DNA of 64,000 nt, from the NCBI GenBank assembly GCA_028583605.1, contig CM053337.1:25716162-25780161 (forward strand). Reading direction: 5' to 3'. The notes beneath the pieces were generated by a model. That model worked only from the letters and a program-made list of their open reading frames with translations, was not told the DNA's origin and did no database searches. Positions within the stretch are counted from its first letter, which is position 1. Each line of letters begins with the position of its first letter. Made by a program: the position numbers and the translations under genes. The DNA is from Dastarcus helophoroides. Lineage: Eukaryota; Arthropoda; Insecta; Coleoptera; Bothrideridae. Shown one piece after another: positions 1 through 54,010 of this stretch.

Positions 1-127
1 TTCATTATTTGGAGCTGTCACTGACTCTAAGTAGTTTCGACATCGCTAAATAAGAAGAATAATGCTCCAGCTTTTAATCAGAAGCCATTGCTTAGATGCT
101 TAGATTAAACATTACTTAGGTTAGGTT

Positions 128-295
128 AAAATATCTCCGTGATGATGATAGCTTGGCTATCAAAACGCGTTAGAGCAACTTTTGTTGTGTTTTTTAATCT
201 TTCTTGGTTTCAGGGGACAAGATTTGTATTTCAACTTTTGATGATAACCAAGGACCAGTCCGTTCCACCAAAAAAAGTTATGGTTGAGGCAAGTT
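128..295 (+). repeat. Family A repeat, unfolded (monomer) copy with 3' tail
   Basis: This copy runs from the boundary word ctccgtgatgatgatagc through cttggctatcaaaacgcg, a segment ending caggggacaag, and the family tail ccaaggaccagtccgttcc followed by A-rich sequence. It matches the right half plus tail of the hairpin copy near 15.1 kb. It lacks an inverted left arm, so it is an unfolded form. I see no clear target duplication around it. The TTAGGTTAGGTTA just upstream is only two telomere-like units. Confidence 0.8.
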
Positions 296-640: not shown

Positions 641-2460
641 GAAAAACAGGCACTTAAAAATCCCTATAAATGCAGTCTTTGTCTTTGTCTTCCAATCCCC
701 ATATGGTGTCAGGAATTCTTTCCTCTTACGCCTTACTCGCTCTGTTCTTTCTATTATTTGTCTCCTACGTTGTTTCTGTTTGCTTTTTTTGCCTCTCTAG
801 AGATGCAGACCTTCCTCTGCCTCTCTTTTTTTTCTGCAGACTTTACATATCTGCCCTTTTTGTACCATTCACTGAAAACACCCTCTTCACGCGTATAGAG
901 CGCTTTGTTTTTCTTTCGCCTACTAGTCATTTGACCTATCCCCCGGGGAAACCATACAAAAACCCGGGGTTAGTAGACTGCTTCCTGTCTTCTTGTTTTA
1001 CTCTACTATCTTCAGTAGTTCCTGCATCTTCTCTATGAAGTTGCTAACTTCCTTTGTCGATGCTCCTGAGCTGAAAAATTGCATTATCATGTCACAAAAA
1101 ATAATGCTTACCTATGTCCCTTTTGTCTTCTCTTTTTTCCTTCTTGTTTTCTCTCTCTTCTCGTTTCTTTGCCTTTCCGTTTTCTCTTTGTCTTCTTTTC
1201 GTTGTCTTCTTGCTTTGCTATCTTTGCCCTAGCTTTACTTGCGTAAGAGACTCCCTCGATTCTCTTCGTAGTATTTATTTTGCTGTTTTTGATTTTCGTT
1301 ATTGCGGGACAACCGCGATAGCTCGCAGGGTGAGCTCCTTTGCAGTTGGCGCATTTTGCCGGCTGTGTCTTCAGAAGTTGTCTTCGTGTCCTCGTCGCAT
1401 GCTTTTGCCCGCATTTGACGCCGATTGGGTCCGCGTGGCAATTTTTCTGCGTGTGTCTGTAGCTCTGGCAGTTGAAACACTGCCCGACGTCTTTTCTTCT
1501 CCTGAGGGCCTCTGCTCCTATATCTAGGACGCAGCAGGTTTTTATTTCGTAAATCTTCTTCTCGTCTCGGCTTAGCTCAACAAAGACCAGCGGCATTATT
1601 GTCCACTTCTTGCTTCTCTTGTACATCCGAACAACTTTAGTTGGATGAAATCCTTTTTCCTTTAAATCAGCTTCAACTTTTTTTTCCTTTCGGAAAGTGG
1701 AAATTCCTCTCAGTACTATCTTGAGTTTTCTTTCCTCTGAAAGGGGGCACGTGTGGTACTAAATTTTTTTCCCTGACTTCCTTAACAAGAGCTTGATGAA
1801 CTTTGGGGCGAGTTTGACAGATTTTTATTCCATCCTTGCTCGCTTGTGCCTTGATGTATTCAATTTTCTTCGTCTTCATGGTTACCGTCCAATTTTTGTG
1901 CTCCCACAGAATAACTGGAGGTACCTGTCCTTTTCTTTCACTAGTTTTGTTGTTTCTTTTTCTTGACTTTGCTTGAATAGCCGTTATTTTAAATTATTCA
2001 ATCTTCTTGAGCTTCACACGCTTTTCCTTTTCTTCTGTTTTCATTTCCATTGCTATACTCTCTGGGTTAGCAACGGGATATTGAGTATTTTCTTCGCTTT
2101 CTCTTTTCTTTTCCATCGCTATACTCTCTGAGTTAACGATGCGATATTCAGTATTTTCTTCGCTTTCTTCTTCATTTTGTGTTAGATTCAATCTTTCTTC
2201 CTTTCTTTAGCAGCCAAGCATTTTACATTTTGTGTTGATCACAAGTCGCCCACTTTGTCTTTTATTGCCGTCTCTATCAATAAAAGTATTTCCTTTAATG
2301 CCTCTATCGACATATTTTTAAAATCGTCGTCGGATTTTGGGCTTGTTGCCCTTTGGCAGGTCTTCAGCTTTTTTCTCTTCATTGACACACAATTACGTTG
2401 GAGAACAAACCTCTCTGTTCTCGCATGGTCACTTCACTACACTTTAATCGCACTGCGATG
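640..2460 (-). pseudogene. Non-LTR retrotransposon ORF1 (gag-like) relic with CCHC zinc knuckles
   Basis: Read on the minus strand, this is the nucleic-acid-binding ORF1 protein of a Jockey/I-type non-LTR retrotransposon, which packages element RNA. The clearest part (1108-1626) has CFNCQSYRHTQKNC, then VKCGQKHATRTR and CANCKGAHPASYRGCP, matching the usual three clustered CCHC knuckles; the second lacks one Cys position (R-R in place of the usual T-C). Upstream, in another frame (1673-1879), is a segment with DGIKICQTRPKVHQALVK, like the conserved domain that precedes the knuckles in these gags. Further upstream (1994-2400) are charged, low-complexity residues. At least two frame changes and several stops show it is dead. 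The matching ORF2 does not follow; downstream the signal fades around 640-1000. Assignment to gag is firm, clade is not. Confidence 0.85.
2045..2176 (-). repeat. 66-bp in-frame tandem duplication inside the ORF1 relic
   Basis: The word ccat(t/c)gctatactctctg recurs at 2047 and 2113, an offset of exactly 66 bp (22 codons). Both copies translate on the minus strand to variants of ESEENT(Q/E)Y..(A/V)N(P/S)ESIAME. The copies have diverged by several substitutions, so the duplication is old. It lies in the charged N-terminal part of the gag-like ORF. Confidence 0.85.
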
Positions 2461-2823: not shown

Positions 2824-4640
2824 TTAAGACATAATCTTGTGTTTTCTGTTATAAAGCCTTGTGATGCGCAATGCGGATGTCAAGTTTTCATGCCAGCTGT
2901 TAGGTGGTCTGCCAGAAAGTCTTTTTGATGTAGGTATTTCTCCTTTTGCCCACTTTGCCTATCTGTCGTGCCCCATTCTATCCACATGGTATCTCTAGTA
3001 TCCTCGTTTTGATCCTATAAATCTTATATTCCAATTCATTTTGCAAATATTTGGACTATCGAAATATCGATATTAAAAGTAAAATTTTGGGATTAGAGTC
3101 GAAATATATAGAGAAAACACAAACTTTTGATTTTACAGTCATAATAATAAGCAATAATTAAAAATTGCTATGTGAAATTAAAGTGTTTGGAACGCAAGAG
3201 TACACAAAATTATTTGAAACTTGTTAATATAAATCCAAGATTTTGTCAAAAGAGTTCAAATTTAAAGAAAACAAATTTAGAATTTGATGAAATTCATTGG
3301 ATATAAATTATGTTTTTGTAAAAGGAATATTTTTTTCAATTTTATTTTTGTAAACGTAAACCGGAAGGTTGCAGGAAAAAGTCAAATTTTTGAGAAAAAA
3401 GTCCAAAACTTTGGGACTAGGGTGGAAATTCAAGGAACAAGGTAAAGTTCTCTATCAAGATTTCATGACAAATAAGTTAAAATTGCAAGCGTAACTTGTA
3501 ATTCATTTAAAAGTATAATAAAAATTTTTTTCAAATTTTAGATCTTAATTTCGATATCTTGAATTTAGACTCAAATATTCCAAGTTTTTTTGGAGTTTTC
3601 TACTTTAAATCCGCTTCAGTCAAAACTTAGTTTTAGAAATGAGGTTTTCTTAGTAGAACGGACCCGTCCTTGGTTATCTTCAGAAGTTGATGTACAAATC
3701 TTGTCTCCTGAAACCAAAAAGATTAAAAACAGCAACTTTTATTGTATTTTTTAATTTTTCTTGGTCTCAGGAGACAAGGTGTATCAATTTTTGGAAATAA
3801 CCGAAACTTCAACGTTAAAGTCAAAATTTAGAGACAACACACATTTCGATGTTGAATTCGAAATGTTGAAAAAACTCTTTTTGATTAATTTATCTTTTCC
3901 AAAACTCGACTCTTTTCACCTAAAATTTCGACGGTAATAACGTTTATAAAAAAAATTAGGTTTAAAATTTTAATTTTGAAAAAACATATAAAATGGAGAA
4001 ATGTACGAAGTTTATTAAAATCAAATTCCTGATTCAATATAAAATTTTGAAATAAAAATAAAATAATGGCTTTAATCTAGGAATATTTAGGTACCAATTT
4101 GTCACACAAATTTAAAATAACGACAAAAAAATAGCTGTAATTTATATTTTAAAGTCGAAGTTCAAATTTTTTTATTGAGATGTTGATATCTTTTTTTCTA
4201 AAAATTCGAAGTTTAACGTTTTAACTGTTATTTTTTTCGCCAAGATTTAAATTTAAACTTTATATTTTCGATTTTTTGTCAAAATTTCAAGTTTTAACTT
4301 TAAATTTGGGTACAGGTAATATTTGTTTTGGAAATTTAAAGAGTAAGTTTTGAACGAAATTTGGTCACATATGCCATTAGTAATAGGATATTTGTGTTTA
4401 TAAAACTGAAGCTTCTCATTAATATTTTAAATACACTCTCAAATTATCCATATTTGTTACTTTATCTTTAAAACTAAAGAAAGAAAAAAGTTAAAAGAGC
4501 TTGAAATAAACGTAAGTTCTACATTAAAATATTTTTCCCAAAATATTAACTTTTTTTAAAAATTTTGACTTTTAATATTTTGACTTAAAAATGAAATTAT
4601 CTTTTTTGTTTTCTAACTATTGGGATTCTGGATTCTAGGT
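2824..4640. other. Degenerate AT-rich block without gene
   Basis: Apart from the family A copy at 3.65-3.79 kb, this is AT-rich sequence made of varied words such as aaattttga, caaaatttc and tttcgat. No open frame of interest and no recognisable element. Confidence 0.6.
3650..3785 (-). repeat. Family A fold-back copy (tail first on + strand)
   Basis: On the plus strand it starts with the inverted tail (gaacggacccgtccttgg), then gtctcctgaaaccaaaaag and, after a short loop, the inverse cttggtctcaggagac. The stem is about 27 bp with a few mismatches. The loop junction differs from other family A copies: one arm stops at ...gattaaaaac and the other starts at agcaac. No convincing target duplication is visible. 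Confidence 0.8.
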
Positions 4641-10935: not shown

Positions 10936-10939
10936 AAAA

Positions 10940-11040
10940 CAAATGAAATACAAATCTTGTCCCCTGAAGCCAACAAAAGAATAAAAAAGACAACAAAGGT
11001 TACTCTAACGCGTTTCAATAGCCAACCTATCATTTTCAGA
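10940..11040 (-). repeat. Family A monomer copy, tail missing
   Basis: The plus strand reads tacaaatcttgtcccctg, then acaacaaaggttactctaac and gcgtttcaatagccaacc, ending with tcattttcagagaga. The last word is the inverse of the tctctgaagatga seen at the 5' boundary of other unfolded copies. No inverted arm and no tail. Confidence 0.75.
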
Positions 11041-11339
11041 GAGATACTAACACCTACTTCTAAAATTAACCCTTATATACTAAGAATATTCACTTCGGGC
11101 ATGATCGACAGCGTTCAAACGCGCATGCCCATCTAATCATACACGTCACTGTTACAATTCCTTATTTATCAACCTTAACCATTTTTAACAGACATGAGTG
11201 GCCTAAAAAGCCAGCTTAACTATTCATGATGTTGTCTCCAGCCTTATGGATGTCTAAGCTTACACATGCATTTAAAATGGAATTCTTATTTAGTTCTCTT
11301 TACTTCTCTTATTCAAAAGCATGTCGAGCCATATTTTCA

Positions 11340-11423
11340 CTTCTTAATTTTTTCGTTAGGGTACAAGATTTATATTTCAATTTTTAAAGATAACCAAGGA
11401 CAAGTCCGTTCCACCAAAATGCC
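11340..11423 (+). repeat. Family A copy, 5' truncated, with tail
   Basis: Starts inside the element (cttaattttttcgttaggg) and runs through acaagatttatatttcaa to the tail ccaaggacaagtccgttcc and accaaaa. Only the 3' part remains. Shared 3' end with variable 5' ends is the usual mark of retroposition. Confidence 0.75.
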
Positions 11424-14400
11424 TAATTAACAAATTTTCCAGTTTTTGTGATCCTTTAACACTTTTTGTGGTTTTTCAATATTTTACGCGACATAACTTT
11501 TTCAATTTTTTTTGTATTTGAAAAGTTATATCTCAAAATTTGTTAGCATGTCAAAATTGTTTACCAGGTTTGACTTTCTTTTTCTTATCTTGCTTTTCCT
11601 TGTTCTTATTCTTGCTGTAGGAACAAAACAAGAAATTTGTGAGCAAAATAAGATAAGACAAGAAGTTCTTTTAGCAACAACAAAATTTCTTTAAAACGAT
11701 TAGCAAGAATCAAGGTTTCTTGCTTTTTTTAGGATTTTCTTAAAACGAGCCTTAGAACAGAGCTTCTAAACCTTTCTGAATACAAGAATAAATTTCTAGA
11801 AAGCATCAAGATTAAAAGAAAAAGTTCAATGCTCGCTTTTTTTTCTCGAAATAACACTATTTAGGTATCGAAATTTAAAAATAAATTAAATTTTTCCCTA
11901 AACTTTAATTTTTTTAGAAAGTTTCCTTAACTTGCCCAATTTACTTTCTAAATTTAAATTTTAGTTTCGATATTTCGACTTTTTCTGAAGAGTTTGAAAA
12001 CAAGATTTGGCTTTGACTCGATTTTTTCTCAACATATTGACTTTGATCGCCAAATTTTTCCCCGCTAAGCTCAGCTCGATTTCGATTTAGGCCCGTAACC
12101 AGGGAGAGCTCGGGGGCTGCACTCACGTCTTCCCTAAACTTTTTGGCTTTACCCTAGATGGAACTGAACTTTCCAGATGTGCGACCTTTATAAAAACCAT
12201 TTTTAATGGATCATTTTGTTTTCATACTGAAATGTAAGAAACTTTTTTTCAAATTTGGCGCCATTTCCTATTATTAGAGACCGGATTTTAAGCACAATAA
12301 AGCAAGGTAAAAAGGTGAGCAAAATGTTAAATTAGGCAAAAACAAAAAGCTAAAGAAGGTACCAAAAAGGTAAAATACTTTAAAAAAAGGCATTAACACG
12401 TCACAATTAACAAAAAAAATATTTTGAAACCTCAGTCGAAATTAAAAAAAAATAGATTTTAGATTATACTCAGGATATTCAGAAGGGATATAACATTTTT
12501 AAATGAAAAAGTTCTTACAATTTCGAGTTCAGTCTCGAATTTTCACCCTAAATCTGAACTTTTTTCCTTAAACTCATTCGAATTGTTTCCAAAATTTTGA
12601 CTTTTAAATGTGAGATTTCGTTTCTAGAAAAAATAATGTTGTATTTTGCAAGTGTTTCAAGCTTAAATTTTACATTTTGAAAAAAAATTCAAATTTTGAG
12701 AAGAACTGGAAATTTATACAAGCGATTATTCAAGATTTAGCACCAAATTTTGAGAAAAACTTGGATTTTGTAATAATAGTTTTACAGTTTTGGAATTTAA
12801 AGATTTAAATTTTAAATTCGCTATTTGAATAAAATTTTGAATATTAGGCCCTTTACTAAAAATTCAAAATCTCTTATAAGCCATTATTTTCAGAAGACAT
12901 TTTTTAATAAGTTATTTTTATGGGTTTCTTCTATAATTTTTCCAACATGGCAATTGAACTTTAAAAAAATGTCTAAAATGTCGATTCTTTTATACATTCC
13001 GAGTTTTTAACATCTTTAAGTTGGAAAATTCTGGATTTTTTTAATGACTTTAACCGATCAGCTTAATTTGAATTTTTTTCAAAAAGTTTTAACTTCATAA
13101 TAAAAAAATGGAAATTTTTTTATATATAAAATTTCGAAATTTTTTGTTATAAAGTTGATTTGTTTATTTTCGATTACGGTTTCGAAAGTTTGACTTTTTT
13201 CTCCAAAATTCGAATTCCAAGTCCAAAACACATTGAAATTTTTATCTTAGTTATCAAATCTCAATTTTAATTAAGAAATTTTTTAAATTCATATTTTTAG
13301 AAAAACCTGATTTATAAAATTTTTACAAAGAGTTTAAAAATGTCAAGATTAAAGCCGAAATTTAAAAAAAAAATGCGCTTAATGACCTAAGTTTATTTTT
13401 CAAAATGTTTACATTAGCACTGGTTCAAAATTCAGTCTTTTTCAAAATATTTTGACTTTCTTTTTAGACATTTAATTAAGAAAAATCCCCTGGCCATTTT
13501 GAGAAAACACTAAAAGTTTCAGGAAATATCAAAGTTTATTTTCTGAATTTTGTTTCAAGACAAAATGTTGAATTTTTGTTAATAGATTTTATCTTTTGGA
13601 AATTAGAGGTTTTTTTTTCAAAAATTATAGCTTCTTTTTTCTTTGGACTTAGAGAGTAATTCTAAATGTCAACTTATTTCTAATATTTCGAATTTAAAAA
13701 ACTAAAAATTCGAACAGGTAAATTTGTTAAGGATTAACATATTCTACTTTTTGTTCGGAAATTTATAATTTCTAAAATGGTTAATATTTTCAGAAATGTT
13801 TAATAATGAATTCTGATTATTTTTAAGTACAAACACGGTCGTAAATAAACTTTTTCTAGAACGTGTTTGCCAACTCTAAATGAACACTTTTCTAGACATT
13901 TCAAATTAAAATTCCAAATTCAAAAAACTCAAGATTAAGTTCAGAATTTTGATATCTGACATTTTTGCATTTTTCACAAAAACTTTGGCAAAATTTCCAG
14001 GTTTCTAGAAATAATCGAAGTTTAAAAAAATATTTGTGGATTTGAAGAATTTAAATTTTGAATTTTGAGAAAAAAATAGTAAAAGTATTAGCATACTTCG
14101 CATTTAACAAAAACACTAATTCAAATTGAAAATTCCAAAAAAAGGTCAAAATTTTGAGATTAAAGGTGCTAAAAAAATACGATAAATAACTTTATAGTAA
14201 AACCTTTTTTTCAAAATTTGGAAGAATTAAATGCATTTCGACATTGCAAATTCAGACATCAACAATAATTCCCAAAATTGCCAAAATAAAAAAACGTAGG
14301 AACTGAAGTCTTTGCCAGTTAGAAAAAGATTTGGACGCCAAGAGGAAACTTGAAGTTAAAAAAAAATCTAATCTTCCAGAATTTAGAAAGAATATCCAAA

Positions 14401-14925: not shown

Positions 14926-15065
14926 TTTATTATTGAAAATTGGAATTTTAATTACAAGAAATTCAATTTGAATTGTGATTTCTAAATGTTTGACTCTTAA
15001 TCCCAAAATTTGGCTAAAAACTTTAAAATTTTTAGGAAGGCGAAATTTGAACACTAAAAAACAAA

Positions 15066-15290
15066 AATTGAAACACAGAACTTGTCCCCTGAAACCAAGA
15101 AAAATTAAAAAACACAACAAAGGTTGCTCTAACGCGTTTCGACAGCCAAGTTTCTCTCTGAAGATGACAGCTTGGCTGTCGAAACGCGTTAGAGCAACCT
15201 TTGTTGTGTTTTTTAATTTTTCTTGGTTTCAGGGGACAAGTTCTGTGTTTCAATTTTTGAAGATAACCAAGGACCAGTCCGTTCCATCAA
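15066..15290 (+). repeat. Family A fold-back copy with 89-bp perfect stem and 13-bp TSD
   Basis: The arms 15062-15150 and 15171-15259 are perfect reverse complements over 89 bp with a 20-bp spacer (tttctctctgaagatgacag). The single-stranded tail follows (gataaccaaggaccagtcc, gttccatcaa). The direct repeat ACTAAAAAACAAA lies on both sides (15053-15065 and 15291-15303) and reads as a 13-bp target duplication; its left copy slightly overlaps the arm. An RNA across this would fold into a long hairpin. This is the youngest-looking copy, since the arms have not diverged. Confidence 0.92.
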
Positions 15291-15303
15291 ACTAAAAAAC
15301 AAA

Positions 15304-17690: not shown

Positions 17691-18395
17691 CTAATTATTA
17701 TGTATCCACGGACTGACTAACCATTCAGATATTGATTCAATTACCGGAATGACTGATTCCTTTTGTTTCTCTTGAGGCTCTTCAATTTTTTCAATATCAA
17801 TATCTTCATTGTCGTACCATTCTATGTCATTGGTATTATTATTGTAAGATGTAAGACACAGGCTCTGTCCAGCACGACAACGCAATAATTTAATAGGATG
17901 AAAATTTTCAGTACGAGCACACTGGTACTTGTGAACTGATTGACGATGGATTTTCACATTTTTATTTGATGCAAAGTACAATCCACATGTTGGACATGTA
18001 CGTGCAATCAATTGCGTTTGAACCGTAGAACAATAAAAGTGGTATGGTGTTAAAATAAAATCTAGGCGGCTAGGAATTTCAATGTTTAGAGATAATTGCA
18101 CAAATAAAGGACAAAAATTAGCATTTGCTTGGTCTTTAGGAAGTGGTATATCTAAAGTTTGCGCTTGTGGAAGAGGATAAGGTGGTAGAATAAATCCATC
18201 TGCTAATATCATTCGCAAATTACTTCGTAATTTTCCACAGCATCTAAATTCTGTGCATTTGCTAATTTGCAGTAAATACTGAGGTTCTCTTATATGTCTA
18301 CAGTACCAATCAGGAGTCCATTCCACTAAAGTTCTATCAATATTATCATCAATAATTAACTTACTCCATATTTGCGCTAAAATATCAGCAGCCAT
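17691..18395 (-). CDS. C-terminal segment of the transposase with a C2H2 zinc finger
   Basis: Continues the core after the shift near 18428: the frame reads DNELELKNFKMAADILAQIW, then WTPDWYCRHIREPQYLLQI, KCTEFRCCGKLRS and a C2H2-type finger CPTCGLYFASNKNVKIHRQSVH split as C-x2-C-x12-H-x4-H. A Cys/His-rich tail and acidic end (WYDNEDIDIEKIEE) follow. The first Met at 18393-18395 is internal and not a real start. The finger probably aids DNA binding; this is inference. Confidence 0.8.
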   Translation of the reverse strand: MAADILAQIWSKLIIDDNIDRTLVEWTPDWYCRHIREPQYLLQISKCTEFRCCGKLRSNLRMILADGFILPPYPLPQAQTLDIPLPKDQANANFCPLFVQLSLNIEIPSRLDFILTPYHFYCSTVQTQLIARTCPTCGLYFASNKNVKIHRQSVHKYQCARTENFHPIKLLRCRAGQSLCLTSYNNNTNDIEWYDNEDIDIEKIEEPQEKQKESVIPVIESISEWLVSPWIHNN

Positions 18396-19573
18396 TTTGA
18401 AATTTTTGAGTTCAAGTTCATTATCAATTGTACGTCGCTATCATCAAGATGATTACCAAAAGAATCATACGGTAAGACAAGTCCAGATAATTGAAGACTC
18501 AATGGAGCCATTCTACGCTCTACTCGATGACAAGAACTTCTTCCGGGAGCGTTAGTGATAATAAATATAGCATCAAGATCAAATTTACGAATGTGGGAAA
18601 CAGCATGAGAGATGACTTGAGGAAAGCGTGGATATTCATCAGGTCCTCCGTCAACAATCATGATTATAACTGGTTTTATATTATTATAATCTGTTTTGGC
18701 CAGGCATTGAAATTCTGCTAGCTCCATAAGATGTTCTAGATCGATGCTATGAGTGCGTGCAGATGATGATGAATGTTTTCCTGATCTGATTGCAACGTAC
18801 GTAGGTCCACTGTATGTCACTGCTTCAGGTTTGCCCATTCCATCAGTATTAATTTCAATGCCAGCATATACTGAAGGTATTAATTTATGTTTTTCTGCCA
18901 CCACCCAGTCGTGATCTGGTAGTCGTACTAGATATTCCATATGCATCAGAAAGGGTGCTCGTTTTTTTAGAGCAGTTTTACCACTTAAAATGGGCGCTTT
19001 GTCGTCCTGTGCTAAGAAGAAAACCTGAGCAGGCCAAAGCATGGAGGCGAGAGACTCGATAGCCCGGATAGAAGCAGTGCAAAATTTATCATCGGGATGG
19101 CTTTTGCGTTCATCATTTGTTGCTCTCGCCAGTTTTACCGGAACTGTTACTAAGTGTTTTTTTCCTTGAATTGTAGTAGAACATCTAGGTAAAAGACGAA
19201 GATACGTAGCACTTCGTGATAGATTGAAACCTAACGTCTCTAGTTCTTTGACCAAGTCATCTAGAGTTCTACAGCTTCTTACCATTTCAGTTCGGCGGTT
19301 CTCATCTGCACCACCTCCAAAGCTCGCAATTTCTGCTAAAACTTTTAACAGCTCAGGTTGAGCTTCCTCCAAACGAGGGCGACTTACTGTCTCGTGCACA
19401 TTTAATTGTTGTTTTACAGCTAGATTCTTAATAACATCTTTTATCAATTCCTGTTTTTTTTCTGAAACCTGTTTGATATTCAGCGTTTCGTTTTTTATTA
19501 GCAAGTTTTTTTTTAGCTTCACCGAAGTTTTTTTGCAATTTAGTGATTTCTTGATTGATCTTGAGTCCTCCAA
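18377..19573 (-). CDS. Core segment of the transposase (longest open part)
   Basis: Open for 398 codons; the N-terminal 25 or so residues are probably out of frame, since the true reading enters near 19510. Candidate catalytic residues are the acidic pair in FFLAQDDKAPI (about residue 209), Asp in IMIVDGGPDEYP (about 309) and Glu in GRSSCHRVERRMAPLS. From the second Asp to that Glu is 43 residues, and NAPGRSSCHRVERR resembles the 'PG-----N---E' signature of IS3/retroviral-type integrases. I infer a DDE nuclease. Before the core a helical stretch (LLKVLAEIASFGGGADENRR, then RTLDDLVKELE and FNLSRSATYLRLLPR) looks like a helix-turn-helix DNA-binding region. The last codons (after DDSDVQ) are out of frame; the family continues in the next segment. 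Confidence 0.8.
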   Translation of the reverse strand: MEDSRSIKKSLNCKKTSVKLKKNLLIKNETLNIKQVSEKKQELIKDVIKNLAVKQQLNVHETVSRPRLEEAQPELLKVLAEIASFGGGADENRRTEMVRSCRTLDDLVKELETLGFNLSRSATYLRLLPRCSTTIQGKKHLVTVPVKLARATNDERKSHPDDKFCTASIRAIESLASMLWPAQVFFLAQDDKAPILSGKTALKKRAPFLMHMEYLVRLPDHDWVVAEKHKLIPSVYAGIEINTDGMGKPEAVTYSGPTYVAIRSGKHSSSSARTHSIDLEHLMELAEFQCLAKTDYNNIKPVIIMIVDGGPDEYPRFPQVISHAVSHIRKFDLDAIFIITNAPGRSSCHRVERRMAPLSLQLSGLVLPYDSFGNHLDDSDVQLIMNLNSKISKWLLIF

Positions 19574-19803
19574 GACCAGAATCCCGACGTAAAATACTTG
19601 TATTTAATTCACTTTCCACCAATCAATTTTTTTTTAATTGCATCTTGTGCTGGAGTAGGATGACATGTTAATTGTGATTTAACAGGAATCGCCTCTTTTG
19701 GAATCAGTCTGTGCACCATATCGACTTCTCTAGTGCATAATGCGACAGAAGAATCTGTTGAGTTTTTGTCCATCAAAGCAAGCGGTCCACCAGACACATT
19801 TTG

Positions 19804-23055: not shown

Positions 23056-25086
23056 TTCGAATTATTTTAAATCTTTTGTTATTTCAAATTTTGGTTTTTC
23101 TAAATTGCATCTTTTATTACATTTTTAATTTTCTTCAAAATCTTGACTTTTTTCGAAACATCTTTTTTTTATCGATTTCCCAATATTTCGACCATTTAGA
23201 ATTTTTATCTAAATGAAGCCAAAATTTTGAAATTTTTGAGAAACTTTTTTTTATAAAAATAGGAAAATTACAAATTGCAAGAAGACACTAAACGTTTAAA
23301 CATATTATTTGCACATCCTGATGTTTTTCTGGAATGTCTAATTCTTTTTTAAAATTTGATGATTAAATTTAAAATGGTAGTTTTTAATTAAGATTCCAAA
23401 GTCGAATTTTTCAAAACTAAATTCAATTGTTAAATTTTGCGCTCAGCTGCGATAGCACAAAATAAAAGATGTTAAGTTCAAAATTTGTAGAAAACGTCAA
23501 AATATAAAAAATGGAAAAATAAGATTTTTATTGAAAAATAAAAATTTTAAAAAAATTTAAACTTCCTTGTAAAATTTAAATATTTAAAATCAGAAATTTT
23601 CAGTTAAAACTAAAAAGTTCAATATTTTAAGGTTTTTCAAAACTGTTTAAAATTCTCTGAAATTCTGAATTGGTAGTTTTAATTTATTATTTTTTTTTTA
23701 CTTTTTACCCTTCACAGTCCAATTTCCAGACAAGATTTAAACTTTCAATTTTGTTTCTAAAATTCCTTAAAAAATATTCCAGTTTACATTTAGACCGTCG
23801 AGAGCATTAGTGTTTCAAAAGCGACATTTCGAGCTGAGTTTTGAAGAAAAATTTTGTAATTGAAAACGAAATGTTAATAAAAACTTCGGGATTACTTATT
23901 TTACGAAAGTACAGTAGAACAGTAGAACTTTTAAACAAAAATTAAAAATTTTGAGGTTTAAATTCTAAACTTGAGCAAGAACTGTCAAAATAAGGAAATG
24001 AAAATTTCAATTTCGAGAATAAAATTAAAAGTTCCGTAAATATTCTACATTACCGGAAATTTGTGAAAAAATTATTTTTTCCTTAACTTCGAGTTGCTTT
24101 TATGCAAAGTTATTTTGAAAAACACTGAACACTTTTTTATTCTTGAAATTTTCTAGAATTTAATTCTTTTTCGAAATTGGAGGGAAGTTGCCAGATTTTT
24201 TTACGTTTAAAGAGAATCGCATAGTTAAAAAGGCTGAAGAACTCTCGAGATTTGAAATAAACCTGAAAAAGACGAACTTTTTTGAATAAAGTCAAGGTTT
24301 TGAGAAATTCATTCATCAGTTTGCTTATTTTAAATTTTACTGACGCAAGATTTAGACGTTTTTTGAATATTTCTTTGGGATATTTGGAACCTGACCTTAA
24401 AACAAAAAAAAAATGCAAAGAAGTTCCAAAATTATCATTTGTGTAACGGAATTTTGACTAGTCAACTTTTTTTTCGAAATTTTTCGGGAGACCTTAACAT
24501 TTTCAGAAAAGTTTTAAATTTTCGGGATCTTTTTTGTTAAATAACCTGTTTTTTAAAGTTACAAATCATTGTAATTTTTTTACAAGGTTTTGTATTGCTT
24601 GCTGCTTCTATAATTTAGGTGATGGAAAGTTGTTTAGAAAATTCAAAGAACGAAAATATGATAAATTGACCAGGCCTGAACCCAAAAAATGCGGGGCCGG
24701 GTTAAACTTTTTACGGGGCCCTCTACATACTAAATATTTAAATTAAATGCAAATTCAATATATTTTACAAAAAACTTATTGTAATTGCTTATTTGTAACT
24801 TTAAATAGGTGATTATAGTATACTAGTCGAGAGCAGCGCCTTCGTCTGCATAAAAGAAGAGAAAGCGTCCTTGGGTCATCTTTTTGAATCTGCCAAATTT
24901 ATTTGAAGAGTTTGTTTTTTTTGTTCGACGTGTTTTAAAAATATTGTTTTAAAACATCTCCTTTCTCGTTCGACTCCCGAAATTTCAACTTTTTCTCAAA
25001 ATGTTGACTTAATTTTGAGTTTCGATTTTTTTTTGAAATTTTCACTTTTTCAAAATTCTAACTTTCTTAAAATTCTGACTTTTATA
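23056..25086. other. Degenerate AT-rich block without gene
   Basis: Periodic AT-rich sequence. A GC-richer scrap at 24668-24725 (caggcctgaacccaaaaaatg, cggggccgggttaaac) may be a repeat end. Nothing else recognised. Confidence 0.55.
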
Positions 25087-25090
25087 TATA

Positions 25091-26787
25091 CCGGGTGTTT
25101 TTTTTAGTTGGGAGGTTACCTTTATATGGAATACTACTTATTATAAAGGCAAACTGATTGTGTCGATGGGACGAATCGGTGTTAAACTATCTTCTAAAAA
25201 TATTTTCAGCTTCCCCCCACTACCGATTATACCGGAAGTAGACATCAACTTTCTTATTTTAAATGGCAACCCACAAATTTTATGTTTTATTTGGATTTTA
25301 CGTAAAAAAATAAGGTGAGATTATGTATACATGTTTATCGCTACCTTTGATTGTTTTAAAGATATTTCAATTTTTCGAAAAAAAAATGACAGAAAATAGG
25401 GTTATTTTGACTCTTTGTATCTTTTTTATTATTTGCAGTAAAAACATGAAATTTGGGTTGAAGTCAGGAAATATTATAAAGACTATAATAACGTTAACAG
25501 ATTTTACATTTATTACACAGAGTGATGGAAAATTTATAATCTTTGCTGTTTTTGTTTTATTCAAAAAAACTCTGTTTTTTTAAATGGGAACTATAGGTTT
25601 TTTAATCATTTTTGAATTCTTCACATAAAAAAAAGAAAAAAGTTATATTATTTATTTTTTAAAATTTTGTGCCGTTACAGAGGTATTTTACATAAATCTC
25701 AAAATAAAAAAAAATCAAACATTTCTTGTTTGTTCAAGTAGGAAATTAACTGTGGGCAATAAAAGCTTAAAGAATTAATCATAATAAGTAATAGGAAACA
25801 AAAATAATTGACAAAAAATTTACATCAAGAACAACAAGGGCGATATTCTCTTTCAATACATTTAAAAAAAATCCTGAGTTCTAATCTAACAGTGTAACAG
25901 TTAAAGGACGAATTTCCTTAAACATTTGTTGTTGATTTTGATTACTCCAAAAATGAGAAGTCTGTTTAACAAACCATTTTTACGAAACTTACATTCGTGG
26001 CTACCTAAACATTTTTCAGTAAGTATTCTAACAATTAGCCAAAAACTTATTCGTCTTGTGCGGTTATCTTTTAAGTGTTATTTAGCCTAAAATTTTTAAG
26101 CCTTGTGGTTGTGTTTTTTTTTTGAAAATTTTGTTGACTACTACCAAGTTGCTACTAAAAAAAAAAGATATATTTTTCTTTTTCATTTTGCATTATATCT
26201 CTGTAAAGGTGCAGAATTTTAAAAAATTAGTAATATACCTTTTTTCTTCTTTTTACGTGAGGAATTCAAAAATATTTAAAAAACATATAGTTCCCATTTA
26301 AAAAAACAGAGTTTTTTTGAATAAAACAAAAACATAAAGATCACAAAATTTCCATCACCCTGTGTAATAAATGTAAACCTTGATTACGTTATTACAGTCT
26401 CCATAATATTTCATGACTTTAGCCCAAATTTCATGCTTTTATTGCAAATAATAAAAAAGATACAAAGAGTCAAAATAACCCTCTTTTCTGTCAGTTTTTT
26501 CCGAAAAATTGAAATATCCTAAAAACTACCAAAGATAGCAATAAACATGTATACATAAACTCATCTTATTTTTTTTACGTGAAATCCAAATAAAATATAA
26601 AATTTGGGGGTTGCTATTTAAAATAAGAAAGTTCATGTCTACTTCCGGTATAACCGGAAGTGGGAGGAAGTCGAAAATATTTTTGAAAGGTAGTTTAGTT
26701 CCGATTAGCCATATCGACAAAATCAGTTTACCTTTATAATGAGTGATACTCCATATAAAGGTAACCTCCCAACTAAAAAAAACACCC

Positions 26788-26789
<2 letters not shown>
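25091..26789. mobile_element. Fold-back element with ~600-bp inverted arms
   Basis: The ends are CCGGGTGTTTTTTTTAGTTG (25091) and its inverse ...ctaaaaaaaacacccgg (26789). Arms about 25091-25690 and 26190-26789 are inverted copies of each other along their whole length, with scattered substitutions and small indels (for example aggttacctttatatggaat against attccatataaaggtaacct-like sequence). The middle 500 bp is single. The flanks carry TATA on both sides, a possible TA or TATA target duplication, though the right side is a TA microsatellite. Short open frames in the arms (such as 25323-25583) match nothing I know. No transposase, so it is non-autonomous; superfamily unknown. Confidence 0.88.
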
Positions 26790-26843
<54 letters not shown>

Positions 26844-26846: not shown

Positions 26847-26978
26847 GTATTTATATTAATTTCTTCTAAAACTTTAATTCTTTTGCGAACTTTTGTCTTT
26901 ATTAAAAATCTTTTTTGGAAATGTCAACTTTTTAAAAAATATCCTTTTCAAAACTTCAGTTTTTTGTAAATATTTTGG

Positions 26979-27138
26979 TTTGATTGAACGGACTGGTCCT
27001 TGGTTATCTTCAAAAATTGAAACACAGAACTTGTCCCCTGAAACCAAGAAAGATTAAAAAACACAACAAAGGTTGAGAGAAAAAAACTGTTTTTTAATCT
27101 TTCTTGCTTTCAGGGGACAAGTTCTGTGTTTCAATTTT
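26979..27138 (-). repeat. Family A fold-back copy with 12-bp TSD
   Basis: The plus strand begins with the inverted tail (tttgattgaacggactgg), then arm 27012-27062 and its inverse 27089-27139, differing at one or two positions over 51 bp. The loop acaacaaaggttgagagaaa differs from other copies. TAAATATTTTGG is repeated directly on both sides (26967-26978 and 27139-27150) and looks like a 12-bp target duplication. Confidence 0.9.
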
Positions 27139-27150
27139 TAAATATTTTGG

Positions 27151-28894: not shown

Positions 28895-29420
28895 TTAGAA
28901 TCTAATGAAAACCATACTGCAATTGCAAAGTTCACGGAGATGAGGCAAAGCTTGTATCACGGGTTGCATCGCAACATCCATAGATACAAGCGTCCTCGGC
29001 GTGACTTTACTTTCATTTAGTTTTGACAAACGACCAATTAAATGTTCTGTAATTAAACAGTTAAACGTGCTTAAAATTGAAAATATGTACAACCGCAACC
29101 GTAGACCAATTTCGGCCTTCCTTGGCCTCATCCTTGGCTTGTTATCTCAGCAGAGAAGAATGCTTCAATTAGCATGTAGCGAAAATGTTTGCGTAATAAA
29201 CAATTAAAAGTCAGTTACAAGTCACCCAATGGAGGTTTACTCTCTTGGATACTTATACGACTGACTAACGGCTTTAAATTGGAAGTGTATACAACCACCG
29301 GACCATGCTGATGAGGCCAAGGAAGGCCGAAACTAGTCTATGGTTGGGGTTGTACATATTTTCAATTTTAAGCACGTTTAACTGTTTAATTACAGAACAT
29401 TTAATTGGTCGTTTTTTATT
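28895..29420. repeat. Repeat D with ~104-bp inverted arms
   Basis: Arms 29028-29131 and 29311-29415 are reverse complements at about 90-95% (aaacgaccaattaaatgttc ... ttcggccttccttggcctca), with about 180 bp between them. The sequence before and between the arms (for example ttgcatcgcaacatccatag, tacaagcgtcctcggc, gcttcaattagcatgtagc) is related to the element at 51.0-51.5 kb. Confidence 0.85.
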
Positions 29421-30374
29421 TTAGTAATTACGATGCTTAAATGGACATGAGAAAGAACATATTTTGAGACATTTTCAAATTTCTTTGGAAATTTCGTCGA
29501 CATCTTTGCCAAATTTTGCCATTAAACTCAAAATTACGAGAAACCATTTTGGAGCAATTCAAGGTTTTTTTGACCTTAAATCCTGCATTTCGAGTTTAAT
29601 CTAGAAATTTTAACTTTAAATATGAAATTTCAATCTTAAATTAAATATTATTTTTATTACATAATTTTTCTTAATATTTCATTTGGCATTTTCTCCTTCA
29701 GAACAAATTTTTAATTATAAAGTTGCAATTTTGAGAAAATACATTTGAAAATCCTGTGATTCTCGAAAAAAGTCGAAATTTGTAAATATAATTTTTAACA
29801 ATCTTGCAATTATGACTTTCTTAAAAAAAATTTGATTTCTAGCAGAAGCTTTCAACTTTCTACATTGAAAGACATTTTGAATAAAAAATTTAAATCAGAA
29901 ATTATTAGAAAAAACTTGAAACGTCGAAAAAATTCTAATCAAATTTGTGCAGAAAAGTATGGTATAAAATCAAAATTTGAAGAAGAAAGTTTAAAATGTC
30001 CAATCAAATTATTCCTTCACATTTCGATTTAAGTATCAGAAGTACCAAATTAAAGCCAACATGTCGCGCTTGGACCGCTGGACCCTTTATAAGTTTATAT
30101 TAAAAAAAAGAACCCGAAAAAAAAATCATTTGCAAAAATTTGGGTAAACTCTTGTGGAAACAGATTAATGAATGATGTCAGGTCACAAAGAATATACTTT
30201 AATGCTCATTTTTACCACCTTAGAGACAGGATTTTGAAAAATTCTTTCTTAGTATTCACCTACATCTTACGGGGTATACCTAAGTGAAATTTTATGTTTT
30301 TAACCCATCGGTTTAGGATGTGACAGTCAGTGTTTAGAAATTATTAACTATATTGTTTTTCTGTTGATATTTTA
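29421..30374. other. AT-rich intergenic sequence
   Basis: Periodic AT-rich to 30.03 kb, then ordinary intergenic DNA. No gene recognised. Confidence 0.5.
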
Positions 30375-31087: not shown

Positions 31088-31180
31088 ATGTTTATTAATT
31101 TCATTTAACATTTCTTCGGCCCAGTTTGGAAATTAATAAACATAATATTTCCGGTCAATAAGAGTTCACCATGAAGAATT
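31088..31180 (+). repeat. Family B copy
   Basis: Contains aacatttcttcggcccag and tttggaaattaataaac, then the tail cataatatttccggtcaat, aagagttcaccatgaaga. Both parts match the family B insertion at 46.4 kb, in opposite orientation. A small stem (tgtttattaatttc / gaaattaataaaca) makes this too a short hairpin plus tail. Confidence 0.8.
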
Positions 31181-31189
31181 AAGAAATAT

Positions 31190-33579: not shown

Positions 33580-36105
33580 ATCTAAAAAAAAACGTAAAAA
33601 TTAATTAGTGGAAAATGGACCAAGAAAATGGAAAAAAGCTTTATATAACTGATTTACCATATATAGAGGATGTGGTAGTATTCATTAAATATCAATAGGA
33701 ATTATCGGTTATGTCGATGGTTTGGGCAAACGAAAACTACCGGTTGTTTGGATTATATCGAAATGTATCGATAGTTTGTATTTTCGAAAACTATCCAAAA
33801 TTTAAACGTTGAACTTATCGAGAGTTTGGCTGTCGAAAACTTTTTAGTATACGATTGTCCAATTAAGACAGGGTTTCTTAACTTGGAGTCCATGGTCCCC
33901 CGAGGGGTCCATATTAAGAGCCTTGGCCTATCTAACAACATTTATTAAGATAATAATTACTCAATTAATTTGTCCAGTCCTACGTAACAAAAAGAATTTT
34001 TAGATTCCCTTGACTTTTTTTAATATTAGCTAGCTACCATAAAACAGAGTGTGGCACTTGCTTCCTCTCATGCAACCGAAAAATCTTATTCTCAAATGCT
34101 GGAATCTTTTGCAGAAATTTCCATTTTTTTCTTCAAAAATCGCTCTCTCCTTAAATTTGGACACTTTTTCGAAATTTCGACATTTTTCTCAAAAATCGAC
34201 ATTTTTTACAAAATTTGTCTTTTTCTTTTGAAATTTCGAATTTATTTCTAAAATAAAATTTGACTTCTTTTATTAGAATCTTACTTTTTTGAAATTTAAA
34301 ATTTTTATCTCAAAAAATATTCGTTTTTTTTGGAAAGTAAGCCATTTTTCGAATTCAAATTTTTTAAATTTTAAAACTCAAAATTAGCAGAAAATTTCAA
34401 CTTGTTGATCGAAATTTTTTTCGAAATTTGGTCAATTCTTTGTTAAAAAAGTAAATATTTAAAGAAGAATAAATCAATTTAGAAATTTTAAAAATATTTT
34501 TTGGAAATTTTGAATTTTCATATATATATTCCATATTCCAAAATACAAGTTGGAGAAAATATTCTGTAGAAATATCAACTTTTTCTTTTTAAATCAAACT
34601 TTCTGGAAATTCCAACTTATTTCTCAAAATTTTATCTCAATATTGTACATTTTCTAGGATAAAGTGGGGAGCTTGTCCTTATTGACTCAGGCTGAGTCAA
34701 GAAACTTCTACTCTTTTCTTTTAACAATTATTTTACAAAATTTGTTTCATTCTTTTTTTTTACCGAAATGTCGACAAAATTCGACTCCGAGGAAATTTCG
34801 AATTGTTATTAAATTGCGACTTTTTTTCGCTAAATTTCGATCTTTTTTTCAAAATGTCTATCTTTTGCCCAAAATTTGGATGTTTTTTTTTCTTCAAAAA
34901 TTTATTTGGATTTTTGAAAGTTTCGATTTTTACCTCCAAAATCGTTTTTTTCTCGAAGTATTTGTTTCAGAATCCATCTTTTTTAGAAATTTAGACTTGA
35001 AACTTGATCTACCGTGTTTTAAATCTCAAGGTTTTCTTCAAAATTACACTATTTACTCAAAATTTGACTCGATGTAAATATAAATTTTTTTCTTGAAATT
35101 TCATGTTTGTCGTAGAAATTCATGTTTTTCTCGGAATGTCGATTAATTTTTCAATATTCGTCTTTTATAATTTAGGCTTCCCATTGTTTTTCTAACATTT
35201 GGCACTCTTTGGAAAGGTTCGAATTTTTTTTTCGAAGTTTTGACGGTTTTTTTAAAATTACGGCTTTCATTTTTCGAAATTTCCATATTTATCTTAACAT
35301 TGGACTTCTTTTTGCAACTTTTCTCCAAATTTTTTAGTGATTTTGACTAGTAGTGTATAATTTTCCTTTTTTTCGAAATGTTAATGTTTGTTTTAAAATT
35401 CCATAAATATTATTTCTGGTCATTTTGCGTTTTTCGTCCAAATTCGTCTCATTATAGAAGTTTTGACTTTTTTTCTTAAAATAAGTCTTTTTTTCTAAAA
35501 GTTATCTCTTCCCCAAAAATCTATTTTTTAAAAATGTCGACCTTCTTTTGAAAATTCTACTTTTTGAAAAATATTCATTTTTGTCGAAATTTCACCATTT
35601 TTCCTAATACTCGTCTGTTTTTGAAAACTCTAAATTTTTTAAATTTAAAATTGTAACTTGCATCTCAATGTTTTGCTTCATTTTCGAAATTTTGACTTTT
35701 ATTTCATAGTGTAAACTAGCTTTTGCGTTAAATATTGATTTGAAATGTTAAGAAATAAGTAAACCTGTTGAGAAAAATATATTCGGATAATTACATGATA
35801 TACAAAGTTCGTATAAATTCAGCTTCTTTAGTGAAATTTAAATATTCAAAATTTAAATAAAATACAAATAAAAAATACTGCCAGAAAAATATTTGTAATA
35901 GTTGTAAGAAATATTATTCGAAATAACGATTTTTTTATCAAAATTTGACTTTTTGCGAAAATTGTTCGCTCTTTTTTACAAAATTCTAAATTTTAACTTT
36001 TTTCGAATTTTCGATATTGTTCGAGTTTTTTGGCTTTTAATTTAAATTTGAATTTCAAAAATTTTGAAGTCTTTTTTTGTGAAACGTCCTAATTATTTTC
36101 AAAAA
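33580..36105. other. Intergenic, then T-rich quasi-periodic block from 34.07 kb
   Basis: 33.58-34.07 kb is ordinary intergenic DNA with an imperfect inverted pattern around tatcgaaatgtatcgatag. From 34.07 to 35.75 kb the plus strand is T-rich with words like tttcgacatttttctcaaaa. No gene. Confidence 0.55.
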
Positions 36106-36107
36106 AC

Positions 36108-36160
36108 TGATATACGAATCTTGTCCTGTGAAACAAAGAAAACAGTAGTTGCTCTAAAGT
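36108..36160. repeat. Family A fragment
   Basis: Reads tatacgaatcttgtcctgtg, aaacaaagaaaac, then gtagttgctctaaag, a diverged piece of the family A arm. No tail. Confidence 0.6.
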
Positions 36161-39560: not shown

Positions 39561-39783
39561 TTCGTGTTGCTTGTGATGAAAATGGATCTTTGAATTGTAT
39601 TGGAAAGAACGAAATGAATGTGTCAATCAATATTATATTTAGAACAAGAGTTTCTTAAACTTAATAAGTTAAAATTAGTTTTGATCATATTTTAGTAATG
39701 GTCATTGTTTAATAATTGCATTCTTTACTTTTATTAGGTTCGTCGAAAAAAAAAGCAAGGACATTAAACCAGGAAGTTTGAAA

Positions 39784-39925
39784 TACAAATCTTGTCCCCG
39801 GAAACCAAGAAAGATTAAAAAAACACAACAAAGGCTACGTTTTTTAATCTTTCTTGGTTTCAGGGGACAACATTTGTATTTCAATTTTTGAAGATCATCA
39901 AGGACCAGTCCGTTGCATCAAAACT
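39784..39925 (+). repeat. Family A fold-back copy with 13-bp TSD
   Basis: Left arm tacaaatcttgtccccgg ... gattaaaaaaac, short loop acacaacaaaggctac, right arm gttttttaatctttcttgg ... caacatttgta, then the tail ccagtccgttgcatcaaaact. AGGAAGTTTGAAA is at 39771-39783 and again at 39926-39938. With AAAC(C/T) in front, the duplication could reach 18 bp with one mismatch. Confidence 0.9.
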
Positions 39926-39939
39926 AGGAAGTTTGAAAA

Positions 39940-41430
39940 ACCATGGAACACGTTGAGAAAATTTTATTTGTAGTTATACGCACTGTTATTAATATACATA
40001 CTTTACATTATAATTTACATTATACTTATTTTTTAACTTATAAAAACGTTAAAAAAGAGAAAGTTAACCAAATCAGAAAATTCTATTTCCGTTTTAAAAA
40101 GTGCATTTCATTTCGTGTCAATTTCTTACAATAATTCATGTCGTCATTCAGCATCTCAAACAATTTTAATTGTCTTCTGTTCTGCAGACCTCTTACCGCC
40201 CAAGAACAATGATCACTGCTGATATTCGATAATCTAAGATGGTTGAATCGCTAGAAACTAAACAATATATTATATATGGGAAATACTGAAATAAATGTAC
40301 TGTAGTAATTGTCACTGAAACAGAAGCTATACAAATTGCACACTGATTTCTAACTCACAATTTTATCCTTGAATTCTTCCACAAGACAAATATGTTGGGA
40401 ACCTGATATATTAGTAAACTTGAGTAAAGCGTTTCCATGACCAACTCTTTAGTTTCTCAATGCAATTGCGTGATTAAAGGAATGACTAAAGACACAGTAC
40501 AATGAAATTGTACAATGCGCCAAAAAGGGAAGCATAGGGAAAGGTTCTAAATCTCAGAATTGATATTGAACCATACAAGTTTAAAAAATTAACGAATTCG
40601 TTTACTTTGAATTAATGGTAACACAATATTTAAACGGAAGTGTAAGAATTGTCTTATCAAACCAAGAAAGATATTGTAATGCACTACTTAATACCAGAAA
40701 TTTCCCCAACAGAGTTAAGTGGTAGAGATATTAAAAGGTCTAAACTTTAATGTAATATAGCCAGCTAGAAAGGGAAGAAAAGTGGAAAAGATTATTTTTG
40801 TTACAGGCTAGGAATATTGCCCCAGTGGTAACTTACCTCATCATCTTATGCGATAACAAAATACGTAAGACAATATATAAGACAAATTTTGAAATGAGGG
40901 TCACCATTTATATTTTTATTACTAACTCGTGACTTACAACCGAGTTATAGGGCAATCCAAAATGACCACTATTTATTTTTTGCATACATATCAAACTTAT
41001 TTTCAAACTTTTGACTTTTTTGTCAAACTTCCCAATTTAAATTTGCAGATTTTTAGGTATTTTCTGAAATTTTAGGTTTGAATTAAAAATTTCTAGAAGT
41101 CGATATTTTGGTCTAAAAGTTGCTAAAAAAAGTCGACTTAAATAATATAAAAAAAGAATACATATCAAATTTAGAGTACAAATTTTAGCGAAAAATTAAA
41201 AAGGCAGATCTACAGGATTTTAAAAGAACAACGAAATTTTCAAAAGTTGACTTTATTTCAAATTTTCAACTCTTTTTGGGATGTTTCTGCTGGCAATTTT
41301 TTTGATTTTATGAAGCAAAATTGAGAAAAAAAGTTGATAACTCACTCGCAATAAGTCAATTTCAAAATTGATGTCAAAGTTTCCAGACAAAACTCAAATG
41401 TAAGGAATCTGTTTTTTCTTATTTTCTAAT
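39940..41430. other. Intergenic sequence without recognised feature
   Basis: No gene or element recognised. From 40.97 kb the texture turns to periodic AT-rich. Confidence 0.5.
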
Positions 41431-41434
41431 TTGC

Positions 41435-41522
41435 ATGCAGTTAATTGGCTTTTTCTTCGCCGGTCACTCCTTTCACAATCCTAAATTTCAGTACCGGCGA
41501 AGAAAAAGCCAATAAACTGCAT
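41435..41522. repeat. Compact 30-bp stem hairpin
   Basis: ATGCAGTTAATTGGC..CGCCGGT at 41435-41464 is the reverse complement of 41493-41522 with one mismatch; the loop is 28 nt. It is more GC-rich at the loop side than its surroundings. It has the size of a pre-miRNA hairpin but may be a small inverted-repeat element. No second copy seen in the window. Confidence 0.75.
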
Positions 41523-43688: not shown

Positions 43689-43689
43689 A

Positions 43690-43870
43690 TTGAAATAAAA
43701 ATCTTGTTCCATGAAACCAATAAAGATTAAACAACACAACAAAATTTGCAGAGCAACTTTTGTTGTTTTTTTTTTTGACTTTTTGTGTTTTTTTAACTTG
43801 TTTGTGTTTTTATGAAAAGATCCGTTTTTTAATTTTTGAGGTTAACCAAGGACCAGTCCGTTCCGCCAAA
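43690..43870 (+). repeat. Family A fold-back copy, diverged
   Basis: Left arm attgaaataaaaatcttg ... aacaacacaacaaaatt, then agagcaacttttgttg and, after a T-rich insertion (ttttgactttttgtgttt), the tail gttaaccaaggaccagtcc, gttccgccaaaat. The junction between arms (tttgc|agagcaac) again differs from other copies. Confidence 0.75.
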
Positions 43871-43879
43871 ATTTAAAGA

Positions 43880-46229: not shown

Positions 46230-46720
46230 AAAGGTATGCAAGTAGAGTACAACCGAGACTACAAATTCATGCAGCCCTTCAGGCGTGTAGGTAGCTGAAC
46301 TACCAACAGTTGAAATACTGCCACCTAGCGAAGCGGCTGCCTTCTAGGAAAAAGTTCCCAGAAGACAAAAATTCTAATTCTTCATGGTAGACCCTTATTG
46401 ACCGGAAATATTATGTTTTTTTCAATTTATTTAACATTTCTTCGGCCCAGTTTGGAAATATTTAAATTTTTATGGTTTGTTGAAAATTTTCTAAACAATT
46501 TTTGAAATGCGACTACGTAATTTGCAAACTGTCATGAAGTGACGTTTTCAATAAATTTAAATATCACGTAGTCACATTTCAAAAATTGTTTAGAAAATTG
46601 TCAACAAACCATAAAAATTTAAATATTTCCAAACTGGGCCGAAGAAATGTTAAATAAATTGAAAAAAACAAAAATTCTAATGTATAGACCAATAGGTTGG
46701 AACATTTATTAGATTCGTAG
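46230..46720 (-). repeat. Family C monomer copy, interrupted by a family B insertion
   Basis: 46232-46378 and 46682-46718 together match the 33.3-kb family C copy in inverse orientation (tgcaagtagagtac, ctaccaacagttgaaa, ctgccacctagcgaagcg, aaaaagttcccagaagac, then gaccaataggttgg). The 5' part is present once only, so this copy is not folded back. It is split by 303 bp that the 33.3-kb copy lacks. Confidence 0.85.
46379..46681 (-). mobile_element. Family B fold-back insertion with 14-bp TSD and empty-site match
   Basis: Tail ttcttcatggtagaccc, ttattgaccggaaatattatg, then arm 46415-46518 and its inverse 46567-46670 (about 104 bp, few mismatches) around a 48-bp loop. ACAAAAATTCTAAT stands at 46365-46378 and again at 46668-46681. 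The 33.3-kb family C copy reads straight through this position (agaagacaaggattctaat on the inverse strand), so it shows the site before insertion. No coding capacity. Confidence 0.93.
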
Positions 46721-51005: not shown

Positions 51006-51007
51006 CC

Positions 51008-51540: not shown

Positions 51541-51544
51541 TTAT

Positions 51545-54008: not shown

Positions 54009-54010
54009 AT

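Follow-up and report, generated by a model that had tools for sequence, protein, structure and literature searches.

Family A, a set of short repeats built as a hairpin plus a tail, is probably the pseudo-LTR (pLTR) of a Penelope-like retroelement (PLE). We put the probability of this assignment at about 0.8; a higher value is not warranted, as a PLE protein was not detected and the peptide searches failed. The assignment is based on PLE anatomy, as the outermost parts of a hairpin are a tailed and an untailed 3′ end and a hammerhead-like core is found at the ATG of an open frame (PMC3846280, PMC11167929). Inverted pLTRs with an optional tail of 30-40 nt on one of them, a PLE feature, are present in all five family A hairpins. 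All counts given below come from one 64-kb window, that is, the whole stretch of DNA that was analyzed.

Hairpin copies and their target-site duplications

The three copies of family A named in the first-pass annotation are real, but the family is larger: with these copies as BLAST queries, ten copies were detected in the window, five of which are hairpins (at 3.7, 15.1, 27.0, 39.8, and 43.7 kb) and five single-armed (at 0.2, 11.0, 11.4, 36.1, and 54.0 kb). The tail, CCAAGGACCAGTCCGTTCC, has seven matches with at most three mismatches in the window, compared with none in 100 shuffles. For the hairpins near 15.1, 27.0, and 39.8 kb, the presence of the tail and of exact flanking repeats was verified. 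Duplications of 12-14 bp had been reported; those of the three hairpins measure 12-13 bp, whereas the duplication of 14 bp is that of a different family, located at 46 kb.

The best-preserved copy is the hairpin at 15.1 kb, with arms of 89 nt that are 100% complementary and spaced by 20 nt. It is composed of a left target-site duplication (15053-15065, plus strand), an inverted, untailed and pLTR-like 5′ arm (15062-15150, minus strand) that stops at the proximal of the two sites described below, a hammerhead-like core (15154-15197, plus strand), a 3′ arm complementary to the 5′ arm (15171-15259, plus strand), a tail delimited by alignment between the proximal and distal ends (15260-15290, plus strand; tail match at 15267-15285), and a right duplication (15291-15303, plus strand), the two duplications matching exactly over 13 bp. 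The hairpins at 27.0 kb (26967-27150, minus strand) and 39.8 kb (39771-39938, plus strand) likewise carry a tail and are flanked by duplications of 12 bp (26967-26978 and 27139-27150) and 13 bp (39771-39783 and 39926-39938), respectively. An older hairpin plus tail at 3.7 kb (3650-3802, minus strand) has a candidate duplication matching at 10/12 positions, which is not significant, and no duplication was found around the degraded hairpin plus tail at 43.7 kb (43678-43871, plus strand).

Among the single-armed copies, the one at 0.2 kb (122-273, plus strand) is tailed and has a degenerate hammerhead-like core; by eye, it has no convincing duplication. The copy at 11.4 kb (11348-11419, plus strand) is 5′-truncated and tailed, and the one at 36.1 kb (36075-36142, minus strand) is a degraded single fragment in which, by eye, the tail is reached via a short internal deletion. 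Two copies are untailed and have a degenerate hammerhead-like core: one at 54.0 kb (54003-54131, plus strand), tentatively placed by eye between 8-bp TACACAAT repeats, and one at 11.0 kb (10938-11079, minus strand). The latter contains TATATAA at 11073-11079, about 40 nt upstream of its core, as a possible pLTR promoter.

The exact flanking repeats are ACTAAAAAACAAA (starting at 15053 and 15291), TAAATATTTTGG (26967 and 27139), and AGGAAGTTTGAAA (39771 and 39926), and the left duplication always has a few bases in common with the beginning of the arm. Equally long matches within equal reach occurred at 3, 11, and 3 per 400 random places, respectively. For the five family A and two family B hairpins, the flank preceding the 5′ arm was also compared with the flank following the tail. 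At the expected junctions, the flanks match at 12/12 positions in four of these seven, at 10/12 in two, and at 8/12 in the 43.7-kb copy; among 3000 random window pairs, none reached 12/12 and 267 reached at least 10, and among 42 mismatched flank pairs, five reached at least 10 and none 12. When gaps were allowed, the matches of the 15.1-, 27.0-, and 39.8-kb hairpins and of the 46-kb family B insert were equalled by 5, 3, 3, and 4 per 3000 random pairs, while those of the 3.7-kb (748/3000), 31-kb (283/3000), and 43.7-kb (1237/3000) copies were not above random pairs. Based on these ungapped and gapped comparisons, four duplications are considered firm and three are not. Within family A, the duplication is exact in three of five hairpins, matches at 10/12 without being significant in one, and is absent in one. 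Family A displays variable target-site duplications at AT-rich sites, another PLE feature.

The family B hairpin at 46 kb (46365-46681, minus strand) carries a tail of 37 nt and a 14-bp duplication, ACAAAAATTCTAAT. When its flanks are joined, the resulting sequence aligns with a related TE at 33.4 kb, unbroken at the junction (82% identity over 166 columns), and this match to an empty site fixes the duplication. A second family B copy, a short hairpin with the same tail (31088-31188, plus strand), has a candidate duplication of 10/12, which is not significant. By eye, family B has no open frame and no clear hammerhead.

Further inverted structures were noted in the window. A different head-to-head pair (29028-29414, no strand assigned) has arms of 105 nt (96%) and a hammerhead-type core at 29308; the Rfam family HH9 matches 29290-29360 with 21.9 bits and thus does not reach its gathering score of 52, the E value being 0.0011 when the short stretch is searched and 0.71 when the whole window is. 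No flanking duplication was found for this pair. Its N-terminal peptide had no protein match at E ≤ 10 in a database containing insect proteins and no relative in viral contigs. A rearranged relative of 28950-29424, about 70-81% identical in pieces, lies at 50970-51542. There is also a large inverted repeat at 25083-26797, whose arms measure up to 264 nt and are 76-89% complementary, and there are hairpins with arms of 41-50 nt at 42919-43041 and 41424-41533.

No tRNA was found in the window, no phage match was obtained, and the exact tail had no match in viral contigs. A degenerate 17-base version of the tail matched 16 loci (3 viral, 13 bacterial or archaeal), which have at most about 24 nt in common with family A and were attributed to chance. 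The 20 Rfam matches in the whole window, mostly to microRNA families, all score below the gathering scores and were dismissed, being of a kind that any long hairpin gives.

Two 3′ ends and a hammerhead-like core

Aligned in sense orientation, the arms of family A stop at two recurrent 3′ ends about 30 nt apart. The distal end, ...CCGTTCCAYCAAA, terminates the 3′ arm in all five hairpins, as well as the single-armed copies at 0.2 and 11.4 kb and, by eye, the one at 36.1 kb. The proximal end, ...TTTCAATTT, located about 30 nt earlier, terminates the 5′ arm in all five hairpins and the copies at 11.0 and 54.0 kb; in the 3.7-kb hairpin it is blurred, as the adjoining flank looks like the beginning of the tail. 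A hairpin thus has a 3′ end of the element on either outer side, tailed on one side and untailed on the other. One tailed and one untailed arm are found in each of the five family A hairpins, and the same build recurs in both family B hairpins (scored by eye). If tails were independent, the probability of this pattern would be at most 0.5^5 = 0.03 for family A, or 0.5^7 = 0.008 including family B, which still amounts to seven copies only.

The head-to-head junctions, or loops, are unlike one another in all five hairpins, as judged by eye, indicating that the hairpins were not copied as units in the manner of a MITE or a hairpin SINE. According to the coordinates, the 3′ arm is longer at the head in the copies at 15.1 kb (by about 20 nt), 27.0 kb (about 12), and 43.7 kb (about 3), and the 5′ arm in those at 39.8 kb (about 10 nt) and 3.7 kb (about 17). 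The heads of the two arms are offset independently, and base loss at the loop may have contributed later. Identity between the two arms of a copy is 100% at 15.1 kb, where the closest sequence to each arm is its own partner, and 98% at 27.0 kb, where partner and another copy tie. Each of the remaining hairpins has an arm that is closer to another copy than to its own partner (93 versus 86% at 3.7 kb, 96 versus 91.5% at 39.8 kb, and 87 versus 62% at 43.7 kb).

In the loop of the 27.0-kb hairpin (27064-27087), the hammerhead-like core and one strand of stem I appear to have been skipped, with TTTCTCT joined to CAACC. Possibly this reflects a jump across a folded ribozyme, as seen by eye in one copy with filler of uncertain origin. 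The minus-strand, untailed copy at 11.0 kb and the plus-strand, tailed copy at 11.4 kb are separated by about 270 nt in head-to-head orientation (10938-11424) and may form one wider pair, which we regard as a lead only. Their outer flanks contain a gapped CTAAYTAAACAAAT-like match, which was equalled by 208 of 3000 random pairs and is not significant, and the stretch between them is not repeated elsewhere in the window and lacks a long open frame in the sense of the 11.0-kb copy.

In the core of the 15.1-kb hairpin, CTGAAGATGACAGCTTGGCTGTCGAAACGCGTTAGAG, the hammerhead letters CUGANGA and GAAA are accompanied by stems I and II of 4 and 6 bp, respectively, and by the palindrome ACGCGT, taken as a weak stem III; CTGAAGA lies at 15158, an ATG at 15164, and the predicted cut after 15190. 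A hammerhead descriptor allowing a 1-nt bulge before stem II and composed after both sites had been seen identified two sites in the window, this core and the one at 29308, compared with a mean of 0.017 sites in 60 first-order Markov sequences of equal length. Rfam called no hammerhead in the 15.1-kb copy. Among the four copies covering the core, the core letters are kept in the 15.1-kb copy only, with bases changed in those at 0.2, 11.0, and 54.0 kb. Over the same four copies, 22 of 24 stem II cells are paired, including one two-sided change; covariation was not above shuffles (reached by 120 of 500) and is too weak to count. The frame starting at the ATG of the core is open through the tail in the tailed copies at 0.2 and 15.1 kb, and in the untailed copies it contains a stop (54.0 kb) or a frame shift (11.0 kb). 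Counted from the ATG, the predicted cut follows nt 27, and the distal end is reached at nt 128.

Proposed insertion route and alternative explanations

We propose that each family A hairpin consists of two 5′-truncated pLTR copies that were inserted head to head in a single event. An endonuclease of the element would nick AT-rich DNA twice, with a stagger of about 12-14 bp, and each nick would prime reverse transcription inside an element RNA. On one strand, priming at the distal site would leave a tail; on the other, synthesis would begin about 30 nt further upstream, at the proximal site, and leave none. The two cDNAs, presumably synthesized by a PLE protein on two RNA molecules, would stop at unrelated points and be joined by their 5′ ends, yielding a hairpin plus tail between target duplications.

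The rule of one tailed arm, which holds for all seven hairpins and for the possible 11.0/11.4-kb pair, could even reflect a fixed division of labour, with an enzyme dimer that holds two RNAs and uses the distal site on one target strand and the proximal site on the other. Each such insertion would then be a double target-primed event, creating in one step a ready-made hairpin locus (double-stranded RNA). We advance this idea tentatively and consider it rather doubtful. It is made less probable by the Anolis PLE, in which top and bottom strands did not differ in their observed start site (PMC11167929), although one start of each kind per event is still compatible with that result. We regard this observation as neutral to mildly unfavourable for the pairing of one distal with one proximal end.

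A mobilizing PLE is expected to encode a telomerase-like reverse transcriptase with a GIY-YIG endonuclease. Neither domain was detected in the 18 frames scanned with Pfam, out of 100 window frames of at least 70 aa, and a protein search with the N-terminal peptide of the 0.2-kb copy gave nothing at E ≤ 1 in a database containing insect proteins. Elsewhere in the window, the frame at 18380-19603 (minus strand, 408 aa) is 81% identical to an uncharacterized protein of Eumeta japonica and 78% to one of Temnothorax nylanderi. It has 619 relatives; the named ones among the best 120 are mostly from insects, several of them multi-copy, and also include a spider, a water flea, and a slug. It has no Pfam domain, and the gene looks mobile, so that these relatives make an insect source of the DNA likely without demonstrating it. 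A Mos1-type HTH (PF17906) at 61978-62295 (minus strand) marks a mariner-like transposase remnant, and a frame with a PRE_C2HC domain lies at 1111-1758 (minus strand), presumably encoding the gag-like protein of an arthropod retroelement.

Long inverted arms lying close together give the family A hairpins the look of an ordinary MITE or a foldback DNA transposon, yet the tail is present at one end only, the five loops are unlike, single-armed copies exist, and the duplications measure 12-14 bp. Two fixed symmetric inverted ends with a short constant duplication, as in a MITE, are not seen in the window copies, and we consider such an origin hardly credible. The first-pass annotation had already favoured target-primed reverse transcription over a cut-and-paste MITE, and the fixed 3′ end, the variable truncation, the 12-14 bp duplications, and the five unlike loops bear this out. 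A caution to be drawn is that MITE-like hairpins can be retroelement ends. The further step of the annotation, LINE-type mobilization, was not supported, as the two-ended hairpin and the core at the ATG of an open frame match the anatomy described for PLE pseudo-LTRs. A SINE-like element mobilized by a LINE and inverted through twin priming would share the 12-14 bp duplications, the fixed 3′ end, and the 5′ truncation. In twin priming of L1, a second nick primes inside the RNA, which results in the inversion of a different, upstream piece, the 3′ end not being duplicated. Family A differs in that its inverted arm repeats the 3′ region itself and stops at a second recurrent site, a kind of start site that is not known from L1 twin priming. 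In addition, the distal end reads CAAA, without a long poly(A), and the 15.1-kb copy carries a hammerhead-like core. Altogether, a LINE is unlikely as the mobilizing class, and twin priming of a SINE-like element appears very improbable.

A more serious competitor is snap-back synthesis, in which a tailed cDNA folds and primes synthesis on itself; the inverted arm is then a copy of the cDNA body and ends short of the tail. The identity of the 15.1-kb arms at 89/89 positions is in keeping with such a process, and the junction of the 43.7-kb copy is nearly palindromic, as judged by eye. Palindromes also occur at inverted junctions in Adineta PLEs, for whose inverted structures a self-priming origin on an antisense template has been proposed (PMC3846280). 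However, in the 39.8- and 3.7-kb hairpins the untailed arm outreaches the tailed arm at the head, which is impossible in snap-back unless bases were lost later, and arms within a copy are not always each other's closest relatives. We therefore judge snap-back unlikely and retain double priming of a PLE as the preferred reading.

Comparison with known systems

Although the first-pass annotation knew of no named family with this build, inverted PLE pseudo-LTRs have already been described (PMC3846280, PMC11167929), and inverted pLTRs and short 3′ extensions are listed among PLE features (PMC8969392). What seemed a nameless build probably matches a known but poorly understood mode of movement; second-strand synthesis and repair of PLE insertions are still to be validated according to a 2024 in vitro study (PMC11167929). 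A few small copies in one window record the start, stop, and joining of each strand. We found no report of stand-alone hairpin-plus-tail pairs as a separate family in the open-licence literature, which is not proof of absence.

Metazoan retrozymes, which carry type I hammerheads and have PLEs as suspected movers, form tandem repeats of about 150-300 bp (PMC7761336). Like family A, they are short and non-autonomous; unlike them, the ten family A copies are single or inverted, as judged from the BLAST copies, and a retrozyme made of direct tandem units with hammerheads was rejected on this ground.

PAc, the Poseidon PLE of Anolis carolinensis, encodes a protein that prefers AT-rich targets and both cuts and extends the two strands (PMC11167929). 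According to the same study, reverse transcription starts internally in the RNA, at 111-118 bp of the ORF, and the tail is the stretch between two such starts; the hammerhead cut lies 26 bp after the start codon. Family A resembles PAc in the two internal starts that would bound the tail, in the proposed cutting and extension of either strand, in its AT-rich targets, and in the position of the predicted cut (27 nt after the ATG). Since Anolis hammerhead mutants still inserted (PMC11167929), the core of family A need not matter for insertion. PAc was studied as an intact element in vitro, whereas family A is known from copies for which no protein was found.

A close structural parallel is provided by the Penelope elements of Adineta vaga, in which inverted pLTRs, one with an optional tail of 31 bp, take in the first codons of the ORF, and target duplications of 8-10 bp accompany some of the insertions described and are absent in others (PMC3846280). 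Head-to-head pLTRs, a short one-sided tail, target duplications, a pLTR reaching into the ORF, and microhomology at the junctions are common to both. On the other hand, the firm duplications of family A, taken together with family B, are longer at 12-14 bp, and Adineta pLTRs mostly flank an ORF or captured DNA, whereas the family A pairs stand alone (PMC3846280).
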